Assembly: GCA_020720765.1 (NCBI GenBank)
Contig: DYOB01000015.1
Span: 1-37,388 of the forward strand
DNA length: 37,388 bases
Source: Borreliella garinii
GTDB lineage: Bacteria > Spirochaetota > Spirochaetia > JABEVK01
Direction: 5' to 3'
Part shown: piece by piece, positions 13,667 to 36,990 of the stretch
Numbering within the stretch: the stretch's first letter is position 1
Layout: each line of letters begins with the position of its first letter
Translations under genes and position numbers: made by a program
The notes under the pieces: generated by a model
Told to the model about the DNA's origin: nothing
Seen by the model: the letters and a program-made list of their open reading frames with translations, nothing else
Databases searched by the model: none

Positions 13667-16243
13667 TTATGAAACAGACCAAGTCAAACCTTCGGAATTA
13701 GCCGAAAGCGTGATTTTTCCTCCTTCATCCACCTCGGACGAGAGCAGCATTTGTGAAAGTGGGTTTTGAACGAAGTTCTGAATAGTCCGTTTAAGAGGTC
13801 TTGCTCCGTAAAGGGGGTCGTAGCCTTGTTCAGCAAGATAATCTTTTGCCTTGGGCATGACCACAAGCGAGATCTTCTTTTCTTCAAGCCTCTCCTGAAT
13901 TCTGTGGATCTGGAGGTCGACTATGGCGTGGATATGTTCTTTTTCCAACCTGCGGAAAAGGATCGTTTCGTCAAGGCGGTTAAGGAATTCGGGTCTGAAG
14001 TGGGCCTTGAGTAAAACCTGGATTTTCTCCCAAGCCTTAGCTGATTCCTTGATTTCAAGAAGGATATCAGAGCCTAGGTTGCTGGTCATGATGATGATGG
14101 TCTGCCGGAAATCCACAAGCCGGCCTTGTCCATCTGTGAGTCTGCCGTCGTCCATCATTTGAAGAAGGACATTAAAAACATCGGGGTGGGCTTTCTCTAT
14201 TTCATCGAAGAGGATAACGCTGTAAGGGCGCCTTCGAACCGCCTCGGTAAGCTGGCCGCCCTCGTCGTATCCAACGTAGCCCGGAGGCGCTCCGATTAGC
14301 CGCGAAACCGAATGTTTTTCCATATACTCGCTCATGTCGATTCGCTTGAGTGATTTTTCATCGTTGAAGAGATAGTCCGCTAGTGTCTTGGCAAGCTCTG
14401 TTTTACCGACGCCGGTCGGCCCGATAAAGAGGAAGACACCGAGTGGACGGGCGGTATCGTTGAGCCCGGCCTTATTGCGGCGGATGGCGTCGCCGACCGA
14501 TTTAAGAGCCTGTTCCTGGCCGACAACACGCTGCCGCAACACATCCTCGAGTTTGAGGAGTTTGAGTTTTTCACTCGACAGCATCTTGGAAACGGGTATG
14601 CCCGTCCAAACGCTGACGACCTGGGCTATATCTTCTTCCCCGACTTCCTCGCGGAGCAGGGTGGCCGCACCCTGGCTTGTTTTCATCAGTTGACTCTTCT
14701 CTTCAAGACGCTTTCTGAGTTCAGGGAGAATGCCGTGGATGATCTCCGCCACCCCTGTCAGGTTGCCTTGGCGTTCGAGAGCTGTTTGTCGTGTCTTAAC
14801 CTCTTCGATCTCCGATTTTATTTTTCTGATCTCGTCTATGGCTTTTTTTTCGGACTGCCACTGGAGCGTCATCGTGTCGCGCTTGTTCTTGACCTCTTCA
14901 ATTTCCTTCACAAGGCTTGCTAGCCTTTCTTTACTTAGAGCGTCTTCCTCGCGGGCCAGGGCCTGCTTCTCGATATTCAGGTGGAGGAGTTTCCTTTCGG
15001 TCTTATCCAGCTCGGAAGGTTGGCTCTCGATCTCGATTTTCAGCCGGCTTGCAGCCTCGTCGACCAGGTCAATCGCCTTATCCGGGAGAAATCTTGCGGT
15101 AATGTACCGGTTGGAAAGCACAGCCGCGCTGATCAGGGCTTCGTCCTTAATCCTCACCCCGTGGTGAATTTCATAACGTTCCTTTATGCCCCTCAGAATG
15201 GAGATGGTATCCTCAACTGAGGGTTCGTTGGTGTAAACGGGTTGGAACCTGCGTTCGAAGGCCGCATCCTTTTCGATATGTTTCCGGTACTCGTTCAGGG
15301 TCGTCGCACCTATAGTTCGCAGGTCCCCGCGCGCCAGGGCAGGTTTAAGAAGGTTGGACGCGTCCATCGAACCTTCTGCGGCACCCGCTCCCATAATGGT
15401 ATGGAGCTCGTCGATAAACAGGATGATCTCGCCGTCGCTGGAGATGATCTCGTTGATCACCGCCTTGAGACGCTCCTCGAATTCTCCGCGGAACTTGGTG
15501 CCGGCTACCAAGGCCCCCAAATCCAGGGCGAGTACCTTTTTATTTTTCAGACTCTCGGGAACGTCCCCTGTGGAGATGCGCCGGGCAAGTCCCTCGACCA
15601 CGGCTGTCTTGCCCACACCGGGTTCGCCGATCAAAACGGGGTTGTTTTTTGTCTTACGCGAGAGAACTTGCATCACCCTGCGGATTTCTTCGTCGCGCCC
15701 GATCACCGGTTCGAGTTTGTCCTTTCTGGCAAGGGCTGTTAGGTCGCGGCAATATTTATCTAAGACTTTATACCGGGATTCGGCAGACTGGTCCGTGACC
15801 CGCTGGTTTCCACGGACGGACTTGAGGGCCTGGAGCAGGTTGTCCTTTGTGGCTCCTGAGCGACGAAGAAGGTCGCCCACCGCCGTTTCCGACTCGGCCA
15901 TACTCATAAGCAGGTGTTCAACAGCGATAAATTCATCCTTCATCTTCTCGGCGGCGACTTCCGACTTAGCCAAGATTCTCCCCAGACTTTGGTCCAGGCT
16001 TGTTTGGGCTGCGGCTCCCTGGGTTCGTGGGAAGCTTTCGAGTCTGGCGTCGAGATCCCGTTTGAGTTTAGCCGTGTCGCAGCCGGTCTGAGCCAGCAAG
16101 GGAGTTGCCAAGCCGTCTTCCTGCTCCAGGATGCAAAACAGCAGGTGTTCAGGACTCATAAGCGAATGATCCTTCTTCATTGCGAGGTTCTGCGCCGCTT
16201 GAAGGGCTTCTTGGACCTTAAGGGTCATTTTTTCGTAGTTCAT
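13667..16243 (-). CDS. clpB: ClpB disaggregase
   Basis: A Hsp100 AAA+ ATPase of 858 residues from ATG 16243 that rescues aggregated proteins with DnaK. In order there are an N-domain with two Clp repeats, and AAA-1 with Walker A GEPGVGKT and Walker [15 protein letters not shown]. Then come the long middle coiled-coil region, AAA-2 with GPTGVGKT and [14 protein letters not shown], and a ClpB C-terminal domain. The pore loops ([24 protein letters not shown]) are intact. A GTG five codons upstream (16258) is possible. However, a -10 box 6 nt before ATG 16243 makes this ATG the likely, leaderless start. A perfect inverted repeat covers the -35 region, suggesting stress regulation. It heads a five-gene run. 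Confidence 0.95.
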
Positions 16244-16249
16244 GCTGAA

Positions 16250-16278
16250 AATATACACATTTTAGGTAAAAAGATCAA
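16250..16278 (-). promoter_or_regulatory. clpB promoter, leaderless-type
   Basis: On the minus strand TTGATC (16273-16278) and TATATT (16250-16255) are 17 bp apart. The ATG at 16243 follows 6 nt later, so little or no leader is made. There is no Shine-Dalgarno sequence. Confidence 0.55.
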
Positions 16279-16302
16279 ATTGATACAGTGCGTCAATTTG
16301 AT
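16274..16302. promoter_or_regulatory. 10-N9-10 inverted repeat at the clpB promoter
   Basis: ATCAAATTGA (16274-16283) and TCAATTTGAT (16293-16302) are perfect inverted repeats with a 9-nt spacer. They overlap the -35 box. The arm and spacer geometry recalls CIRCE (9-N9-9, bound by HrcA), but the sequence is not CIRCE. TTGATACA also recurs directly at 16280 and 16298. Confidence 0.55.
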
Positions 16303-16303
16303 A

Positions 16304-16330
16304 CAAAAAAACCCCGGTTTCCCGGGGTTT
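16304..16330 (-). terminator. Terminator of the yajC-secD-secF operon
   Basis: AAACCCCGG (16309-16317) and CCGGGGTTT (16322-16330) form a 9-bp stem with a TTTC loop. On the minus strand it is followed by a run of T. It lies 17 bases past the secF stop and separates the sec operon from clpB. Confidence 0.9.
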
Positions 16331-23910: not shown

Positions 23911-25977
23911 CTACTCGCAGATACCTTCAGCGGTACCACCGGCAGCATTACGGATAGTTTCCTCTAGGTCGTTGATAACGCGTTTATTTTCCGAGGCGAT
24001 TTCGACGAGTTTTTTACTCGAGGCCTCGATGGCCTGGGTTTCCATGACTTGAGTTTCTGTGACACTGCGGATTTCATCGAAACCCTTGATCAACCTTTCC
24101 ATATCCGCCTGTAGGGTACTATTAACTGCGGCTGCCTTGTCTGCCACCTCACGGATGTCCGAACTGGAATTCACAAGTGCCGTGATGTTCTGGAGGATCA
24201 TTTGGGTTCCGGCGTTCTGTTCGTTCATGGCGCTAGCTATCTCGCTGACCATCTGGACCGTTTTCTCGATGTCCTGACTGATAGTTTTTAAGCTTTCACC
24301 CGCCTCTTCTGAAACCCTAGCACTGTTTTCAACGAGGATCAACATATCCTGGATTTTAGAAGTAATCTTCTTTGTAAGATTGCCACTGCTTGTGGCGAGA
24401 TTTCGCACTTCCTCGGAAACCACAGCGAAACCGCGGCCTGCTTCACCGGCGTGGGCCGCCTCGATGGCAGCGTTCATGGCAAGCAGGTTGGTCTGGGAGC
24501 TGATCTTGGCTATACCCCCCACGAGCTTTCGAATCTCCGAACTCGCCTTTTCAATATCTTTTATGGAGTTGATGCCCGTTGTTACCGACTTGAAACCAGT
24601 CGAGGCGGTTTTACTCAGATTTGTTGAGAGCTGTTTTGCATTCTGAGTTGTGTTGTATACCGAACCAATGCTCGCGGCCATTTCTTGAACAGCGCTCGAA
24701 GTATCATTGACCGCCATCACCTGGTCCTGGATGGCGGAAATAATCCTTCCAAGCTGCTCACTTGTCTGTTGATAACTCAAGTTGGTCGTGTTAAGAATTT
24801 CACTCTGTTCACGGGTCGTTGAGTTGATTTTCTCGGCACCAAAAATGAAATTTTCAGCTGATGTCCGAGATTCGGAGATAACAGCGTCCAGTTTATTTGA
24901 AAACCTCATCACACCAAGGCCTGCACCTTCAAGACGTTTGAATATCCGTGATTGGCTGATGATGAGGGCGTTCACCCGGTCTGAAACTTGACCAATTTCA
25001 TCAGGGTTATTGATATCCAGAAGTTGGGTGCTTTTTGCTTCCGCAAGGAGTTGAAGGCTCTTCACAAGATCTTTCATCTGTGCATCCCGGTGACGGCCGA
25101 AAAGATACATCAGGGTTGCTGAAAGTCCAATGAAAAGAAGAAATAGAATCGAAGTCGTTAAGATTAATAGAGGATAATTTGGAGTAAAGTCGACTATTGT
25201 AAAGCCTTCCGGGTAGATAAGAGTTAAGTCGAGAATAGCCGCGATTGAATTAAAGAATTGTTTTCCTGCTTCTATAGATGACTTAGCACCTGTGATAGCT
25301 TCTTGAAGAGAAGATGTATAGAGAATCTGATAACGGATAAAAATAAACAGGTTGAAAACCATAGCGTAGAGAACAAAACTTGTCTGCGCAAGGGTGAAAA
25401 CAACGCTATTAAAAAGATAACTGCCTTGCCTGGGAAGGACTCCAAAATCGGAAAGACTGTGAATTCTCAAAAGCGAGCGGGGTTTTTCTAAAATGGCGTT
25501 GGAAAGCGGGATTAGGATAATAAGGGCGATCCCCGCTACGAGCATGCTCGGGACCATAGCCAGTGCTACTTCACCCAGTCGTGGGGTTCCAAAGGCGGGA
25601 ATTACGCGGATCGAAAAACCTATAAGGTAACCTGTACCGACGAAAATCAACATCCGTCTCGAAAAAGATTCAAGGTTCTTCAAGGCTGAAACCCGCTCTT
25701 CTGTAACTATAGCTTGTCTATTTTCGAGCTTGGCGACGACGCGCGCAAGGGGCGTCAGACTGTAACCTAGAATAGAGGAAATCAGAATAACCGAAGGGAG
25801 TGCTGTGGCAGTGACGAGAAAAAATATCTGGGCCGTCAGTTCCATGGGGTTAAGCCCGGGAATCAGAATGCTTGAAAAGAAAATTTGGACAAGGTTATAC
25901 GAGACGAGACTGAGGTATACGACCAGACCAACGTAAAACCCTATTTTGAGGCGGAAGCGAAAGCCACTGTGATTCAT
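23911..25977 (-). CDS. Methyl-accepting chemotaxis protein
   Basis: 688 residues. The N-terminal half has about six hydrophobic helices (roughly 10-35, 50-72, 109-127, 138-160, 190-214 and 269-293). One extracytoplasmic loop lies near 215-268, instead of the classical two-helix layout. A HAMP-like linker (about 295-345) leads to a long coiled cytoplasmic domain. Its tip, [34 protein letters not shown] (about 495-528), contacts CheA and CheW. It signals ligand or membrane state to the flagellar motor, and its ligand is unknown. It stands alone. Its ATG is preceded by TATGAT and a 6-nt gap, without a clear ribosome site. Confidence 0.94.
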
Positions 25978-26012: not shown

Positions 26013-26227
26013 GGGATTTTTTTTAAAAATCTTGACACAGAGAAGTGGGTTAAAAAGACTCTATGCGTAATTATGACACAGCCACGGTAAAGAGCTAGGT
26101 AAAAAATTCTCATCAGTCTGTCAATTAATAAAATAAAGTACTATATGATATTTAATTATTTCTGAATTAATATATGGCATGGATTTTGCATATATAGTAT
26201 GAAATAATCGCGTTAAGGAGGTGAAAA

Positions 26228-26662
26228 ATGCGGTTAATTGAACAAACTCCCCGTTCCCGGAGCATATGGGACGATATGAACGCACTTAGCCGTGAAATTT
26301 GGGGCGGACTTGAGTACGCACGTGAAGTTTCACCGCGTACCGATGTCATCGAGACAGCGGAAACCTACGTTATGCATGTTGAGCTCCCCGGTTTTACGGA
26401 TAAGGATATCGATCTGAAAGTGAAGGAGGGTATCCTTACTTTGAGTTCGGTCGAACAGGTGGTGAACGCCAAGGAGACCCGTACCGAAGAGAAATATCTC
26501 TTGAGGGAAAGGGTCGAGTACAAGTTCCAGAGGAGCTACAGGATTCCTAAGGATGTCCAGGAGGACGCCATCGGAGCCCACTTCGCCCTGGGCATTCTCA
26601 CGATCACCCTTCCGCGCCGCCCCGAGGTTCAGCCTCGAACGATTTCGATCAAGGCTGAGTAA
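26228..26662 (+). CDS. Small heat-shock protein, Hsp20/alpha-crystallin family
   Basis: 144 residues. An alpha-crystallin domain (about 35-130) has ETYVMHVELPGFTDKDIDLKVKEGILTLSS, FQRSYRIPKDVQEDAIGAHFALGILTITLPR and a short C-terminal extension. It holds unfolding proteins for refolding by DnaK and ClpB as an ATP-free oligomeric chaperone. The ribosome site is one of the strongest in the window (TAAGGAGGTGA just before the ATG). The 250-bp gap upstream is AT-rich with a weak inverted repeat TTAATT-N7-AATTAA (26152-26170). I see no CIRCE sequence. A strong terminator follows. Confidence 0.95.
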   Translation: MRLIEQTPRSRSIWDDMNALSREIWGGLEYAREVSPRTDVIETAETYVMHVELPGFTDKDIDLKVKEGILTLSSVEQVVNAKETRTEEKYLLRERVEYKFQRSYRIPKDVQEDAIGAHFALGILTITLPRRPEVQPRTISIKAE

Positions 26663-36387: not shown

Positions 36388-36431
36388 GAAAGCTCCTTAA
36401 AGCTGTTTGTACAATAAAACTGTGAGTTTTT

Positions 36432-36990
36432 CTAGGAGCCTGTTGCGCTTGAGATTTTGACACAGGACCGGGGAGCTGGGATGCTCAGGGTGCCGAAGAC
36501 TGAGGGCCATAGCTGGGCTCTGGCCCGATGGATGAGGTGTTCTGGGCGCCCGGAAACCCAGGACTCCTTTTATGATTCCAAAGACCGGTTCGACGGTACT
36601 CTTTCGCTTCTTGTAGAGTTCCTTTTGCCACTCTTGTTCCATCGCTTCTTGCATATCCGCGACCCACTTCTTGTGGTGTTTTTTCGGCGGTTTGAGCTGG
36701 GTGTGGGAGTGTGGACGAAAGTCAAATTTCCTTTGATGTCTGATAGACTCGGACGCCACCGAAACAAGGACTTCCATTTCTTGGTTCAAATGCTCGTCTT
36801 TTCCTTCTTCTTTTGAATCGGCGTCCTTGGCTTTCTGCAGCAATTCAGCGACTTTCTCTGAAAGTTCCTTCTCCAATTCCACCGCCCGATCGTAGCGAAT
36901 ACTTTTGTATCATGTCGCCATGGGTAACAAAGTATCACACAGTTCAACCTCAAGTAAATTCCTGCGGTCTCAAGCGCGACAGGCTCCTAG
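36432..36990 (-). mobile_element. 559-bp non-autonomous IS1182-like element, copy 2
   Basis: Same length and structure as 1089-1647. The 23-bp ends at 36432-36454 and 36968-36990 match with one mismatch, and CTAG lies at both outer edges. It sits 44 bases upstream of the RidA start and 73 bases upstream of the DUF3820 gene. A promoter in the element could affect either gene. Confidence 0.85.
36455..36882 (-). pseudogene. IS1182-like transposase remnant, copy 2
   Basis: The open frame is intact over a larger part than in copy 1. ELEKELSEKVAELLQKAKDADSKEEGK is a region before the catalytic core of IS1182 proteins. It is joined to KKHHKKWVADMQEAM ... ELYKKRKSTVEPVFGIIKGVLGFR, the C-terminal E region. 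The missing middle with both aspartates points to an internal deletion. Non-functional alone. Confidence 0.75.

Follow-up and report, generated by a model that had tools for sequence, protein, structure and literature searches.

The window, meaning the whole 37,388-nucleotide stretch analysed here, carries clpB on its reverse strand with secF upstream of it. A terminator behind secF separates clpB from secD-yajC transcription, and a long inverted repeat sits between this terminator and clpB. The features of the region are as follows, G001 being the other genome of the window's genus and G002 a further genome of the comparison.

13667..16243, minus strand: clpB, encoding the ClpB chaperone (NCBIfam TIGR03346, above cut-off; ATG at 16243), putative regulated gene
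16250..16255, minus strand: predicted clpB -10, TATATT, 6 nt before the ATG
16273..16278, minus strand: predicted clpB -35, TTGATC, position identical in G001 and G002
16271..16287, minus strand: putative clpB operator unit 2, TGTATCAATTTGATCTT, 3 mismatches, covering the -35, 18 bp from unit 1
16274..16302, no strand: 10-N9-10 inverted repeat, apparently a composite of two operator units
16289..16305, minus strand: putative clpB operator unit 1, TGTATCAAATTGACGCA, 1 mismatch to TGTRTCAWWWTGAYACA
16309..16330, minus strand: secF intrinsic terminator

The repeat reads ATCAAATTGA-TACAGTGCG-TCAATTTGAT (16274-16302), with perfect 10-bp arms and a 9-nt spacer, and it overlaps the -35 of the predicted promoter (TTGATC at 16278-16273, N17, TATATT at 16255-16250), just as the first-pass annotation had reported. 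Taken as a bare inverted repeat it is weak evidence and does not convince. The window has two repeats with this 10-N9-10 layout and perfect arms against 0.025 expected from shuffling, the second one, at 1963 within an unrelated gene, evidently being due to chance; with any spacer of 3-20 there are three such repeats against 0.7 expected. A pattern scan allowing up to 3 mismatches gave the clpB repeat as the sole match in both the window and the whole 3.4-Mb genome. This uniqueness, together with the chance copy at 1963, would suit a chance inverted repeat, an RNA hairpin or part of a terminator, with no regulatory role. However, the unit described below is common to other heat-shock genes of the same and related genomes, and such an origin is very improbable. 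An RNA element or terminator was rejected, as no Rfam family matches the repeat and secF has a terminator hairpin of its own, distinct from it.

On the clpB strand the region reads TGTATCAAATTGACGCA-C-TGTATCAATTTGATCTT, that is, two copies of a 17-bp palindrome with the consensus TGTRTCA-WWW-TGAYACA, their centres being 18 bp apart. To judge from the sequence, the real signal at clpB would be this repeated 17-bp unit, with the long repeat arising from the two-fold symmetry of the unit pair. The first-pass annotation had likened the 10-N9-10 layout to CIRCE, the HrcA site, but as a recognition unit that layout has to give way to the two palindromes 18 bp apart, pairs elsewhere being more often 40 bp apart, and the resemblance to CIRCE geometry is coincidental, two 17-bp sites happening to lie side by side. 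The centre of unit 1 lies 19 bp upstream of the start of the -35. In G001, whose ClpB is 76% identical to that of the window, the clpB promoter aligns gap-free and retains diverged versions of both units, positioned alike with respect to the -35, -10 and ATG. No 17-bp unit was found upstream of clpB in G002. The -10 ends 6 nt before the ATG in the window's genome, G001 and G002, so clpB mRNA would be leaderless or nearly so; in genome G003 the clpB leader is longer and includes a GAGG-type sequence.

The window contains a second location for the unit, namely the intergenic region between hsp20 and a divergent gene for a methyl-accepting chemotaxis protein (MCP).

23911..25977, minus strand: MCP gene (Pfam PF00015), divergent from hsp20
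26046..26062, plus strand: second, weaker putative hsp20 operator unit, TGGGTTAAAAAGACTCT, 18 bp from the first
26064..26080, plus strand: putative hsp20 operator unit, TGCGTAATTATGACACA, 2 mismatches
26228..26662, plus strand: hsp20 (Pfam PF00011), putative regulated gene

The repeat had earlier been described as lacking before hsp20, which holds for the long sequence but not for the 17-bp unit, present there with its weaker copy. As the MCP gene shares this operator region, it is possibly a member of the same regulon. In G001 a site is kept upstream of a homologous MCP gene (L147, C17:14152-14168) with no hsp20 called adjacent to it.

Like clpB and hsp20, the groES and grpE-dnaK upstream regions carry the 17-bp unit, so that one motif is common to the major heat-shock genes of one genome. 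The window's genome (G000) has it upstream of clpB, hsp20, groES and grpE-dnaK, and G001 upstream of clpB, groES and grpE. The first-pass annotation had looked to further genomic copies of the long repeat; this occurs only at clpB, and it is its 17-bp unit that is found again before the other three. In mismatch-tolerant pattern scans of seven whole genomes of the window's family (f1), with the reversed pattern as control, TGTRTCAWWWTGAYACA gave 28 matches at up to 2 mismatches against 4 for the control, and 167 against 71 at 3 mismatches. Three of the five matches at up to 2 mismatches in the window's genome are upstream of clpB, hsp20 and groES, while the sites upstream of its grpE have 3-4 mismatches; the grpE upstream region of G001, split onto contig C46, has several sites. 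Taking 300 bp upstream of clpB, groES, grpE and hsp20 in f1 (22 regions), 31 sites at up to 3 mismatches were identified in 19 of the 22, against a dinucleotide-shuffled mean of 0.13. The earlier proposal of a stress regulator with a new site is therefore upheld as far as a non-CIRCE heat-shock regulatory site is concerned, with a unit shared by groES, grpE-dnaK, hsp20 and clpB far above chance. No site was seen in four clpC upstream regions read by eye. The groES upstream region of the window's genome (L115) also has a perfect 15-bp inverted repeat, AATAACACATTAGAA-AGA-TTCTAATGTGTTATT, at -141 to -109 from the ATG, which lies between the two groES operator units and overlaps the distal one; it was not seen in G001.

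Palindromic operators before groES, dnaK and further chaperone genes recall the heat-shock regulon logic of CIRCE and HrcA, and a variant HrcA operator of the same layout but diverged sequence would also explain why a chaperone promoter carries a two-fold symmetric element with a 9-nt spacer. However, a search of 60 Spirochaetia genomes for HrcA (PF01628) gave no match, with 7 of the 14 genomes of the control positive, and the protein thus appears to be missing from the whole Spirochaetia sample and not from f1 alone. The hrcA gene usually precedes grpE-dnaK; here grpE-dnaK-dnaJ clusters were found without it. CIRCE itself, TTAGCACTC-N9-GAGTGCTAA, was absent at up to 3 mismatches from the seven f1 genomes, which bears out the earlier remark that the clpB sequence differs from it, and at up to 5 mismatches from the 22 heat-shock upstream regions. 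The units here, TGTRTCA-N3-TGAYACA, occur singly and in arrays with 40- or 18-bp spacing, for the most part lying upstream of the promoter, and elsewhere than at clpB they do so without a 9-N9-9 layout. A variant CIRCE is extremely improbable, being refuted for the sampled genomes unless the protein is beyond the reach of Pfam.

Other operators of chaperone and clp genes were compared by their sites in the same 22 upstream regions. The HAIR operator of HspR, a MerR-family protein (CTTGAGT-N7-ACTCAAG), had no match at up to 3 mismatches, and the tandem RGTCAAA heptads of CtsR gave one poor match with 2 mismatches. RheA sites were not found. A ClgR site was rejected, the only candidate being a bare CGC-N5-GCG match in G002 clpB. 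By its sites the system would work like other heat-shock operators while being distinct from HrcA/CIRCE, and it looks unlike HAIR, CtsR and RheA.

Outside f1, a matrix built from the f1 sites was run on 28 groES upstream regions of other Spirochaetia families and identified 9 sites scoring at least 14 against 0.07 expected. These belong to six genomes of five families, and five of the genomes have two sites 40 or 41 bp apart; in many families the same scan found no site upstream of groES. In five families besides f1 the unit is found before hsp20, before groES (which there has a sigma-70 gene diverging from it), or before both. A pattern scan of eight genomes of other families gave sites before hsp20 in G017, G042, G052, G036 and G011, before a gene for a DnaJ-domain protein divergent from hsp20 in G036, and in the groES/sigma-70 intergenic region of G042, G052 and G029. 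Its total was 58 matches against 30 for the reversed pattern, and with this smaller excess single matches away from heat-shock genes are not individually trustworthy. With a matrix made of the other-family sites only, the best-ranked of 37,372 positions are the hsp20 unit of the window and then its clpB unit, with the 18-bp partners of these two in third and fourth place, a test that is not fully independent because those sites were found with the f1 consensus. Among 106 clpB upstream regions outside f1 there was no site. In two families a copy of the 17-bp unit coincides with the murG start or immediately precedes it (L267, G017:C72:8841; L268, G042:C4:44121; L294/L301 in G029 and G049), possibly an unexpected target or a coincidence.

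The gene divergent from groES in several Spirochaetia families encodes a sigma-70-family protein of approximately 290-320 aa with regions 1.2-4.

L311:9913-11332 in the window's genome: sigma gene divergent from groES, sharing its operator region (similarly placed genes: L308, L307, L309, L312 and L313)

The content of the regulon resembles that controlled by RpoH (sigma-32), and here too a sigma gene is at hand. An RpoH-type sigma was rejected for this gene, which scores 167.9 bits with TIGR02392 (RpoH), well below the cut-off of 323.1, and is RpoD/RpoS-like. Unlike in RpoH control, the common element is a palindrome outside the -35 and -10, hence no sigma promoter, and it is left unexplained by the sigma factor itself. 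Apart from the sigma gene, no DNA-binding regulator recurs in the groES and grpE-dnaK-dnaJ neighbourhoods. No autoregulated factor was found among the matches with 2-3 mismatches in the window's genome and G001, and a cross-BLAST of these matches left groES and the sigma gene divergent from it as the only genes common to both.

The spacing between unit pairs peaks at 40 bp (11 pairs from different genes and families; z 10.6 by autocorrelation), with a second peak at 18 bp (5 pairs). The best explanation overall, to which we assign a probability of roughly 85%, is that the clpB repeat is an adjacent pair of 17-bp sites for a dimeric, cooperatively binding transcription factor. This factor would control an f1 heat-shock regulon made up of clpB, hsp20, grpE-dnaK, and groES with the sigma-70 gene divergent from it. 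In several other Spirochaetia families, pairs of the element with 40- or 18-bp spacing mark groES/sigma and hsp20.

Distances from the site centre to the predicted -35 also recur. For grpE the value is 101-103 bp in most f1 genomes, for groES it is 98-101 bp in G002, G003, G004 and G006, and for hsp20 approximately 102 bp in G017, G042 and G052 of other families. For clpB (window's genome and G001) and the DnaJ-domain gene they are 18-19 bp, and in several cases about 60-65 bp. Distances of approximately 18, 60 and 102 bp suggest a step of roughly four turns of the helix, in favour of an activator contacting RNA polymerase, although this phasing is softer evidence than the 40-bp spacing because the -35 and -10 were predicted by consensus score and chosen post hoc. 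Such an activator would dock at helically phased positions, at these three distances upstream of the -35, on otherwise normal sigma-70-type promoters. Provided that the element is a transcription factor site, activation is somewhat the likelier sign of control.

A less likely alternative is that the same operators bind a repressor released by heat, following the logic of HrcA or HspR, with cooperative arrays or loops blocking RNA polymerase. The first-pass annotation had thought of a repressor, and unit 2 of clpB does cover the -35. In G029 both sites are downstream of the predicted groES promoter, and groES promoters are near consensus (TTGACC-N17-TATATT), so that they would have to be kept in check rather than boosted. 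However, most sites are 18-140 bp upstream of the -35, at similar distances that recur across genes and families, and simple occlusion does not account for these.

The heat response of the proposed regulon is suggested by published data for Treponema denticola, in which heat induced groES 2.2-fold, grpE 3.4-fold, dnaK 5.6-fold, clpB 3.7-fold, hsp20 9.5-fold, the sigma-70 gene TDE0937 2.8-fold and the MCP gene dmcB 2.9-fold (PMC2965109). That heat-induced gene set, with grpE-dnaK-dnaJ in its core stress response, overlaps the regulon found here, and its authors suggest that TDE0937 may regulate the stress response; searched by terms, the main text yielded neither an analysis of promoters or operators nor any reference to HrcA (PMC2965109). 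G029 looks close to T. denticola by sequence, its groES upstream region containing AGTGCCAAAAAGGCACAAA, which equals bases 1-19 of a 20-base primer designed to T. denticola TDE0935, a gene co-transcribed with groES (PMC2965109). TDE0937, numbered three loci from groES, would match the groES-sigma neighbourhood described above. Since the clpB site is seen in f1 only, induction of T. denticola clpB would come about by other means or through an unrecognised site.

The means by which spirochaetes activate their heat-shock genes seem not to be settled: HrcA is absent from the sample, and the papers found on T. denticola heat induction name no regulator. A search of open-access literature yielded nothing on the 17-bp motif. 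As a tentative proposal, with odds slightly short of even, Spirochaetia lacking HrcA may use a lineage-specific activator on helically phased arrays of the palindrome, controlling the chaperones together with a dedicated stress sigma divergent from groES. If true, such arrays would make up a bacterial equivalent of heat-shock-factor arrays. With the site, its target genes, its spacing and its promoter positions defined, the question becomes accessible to experiment in free-living spirochaetes, by mutating promoters and by DNA-affinity capture.

Similar transposase-like ORF fragments occur close to each end of the contig, at 985-1446 and 36397-36882 on the minus strand, which are perhaps the cause of the assembly breaks there.
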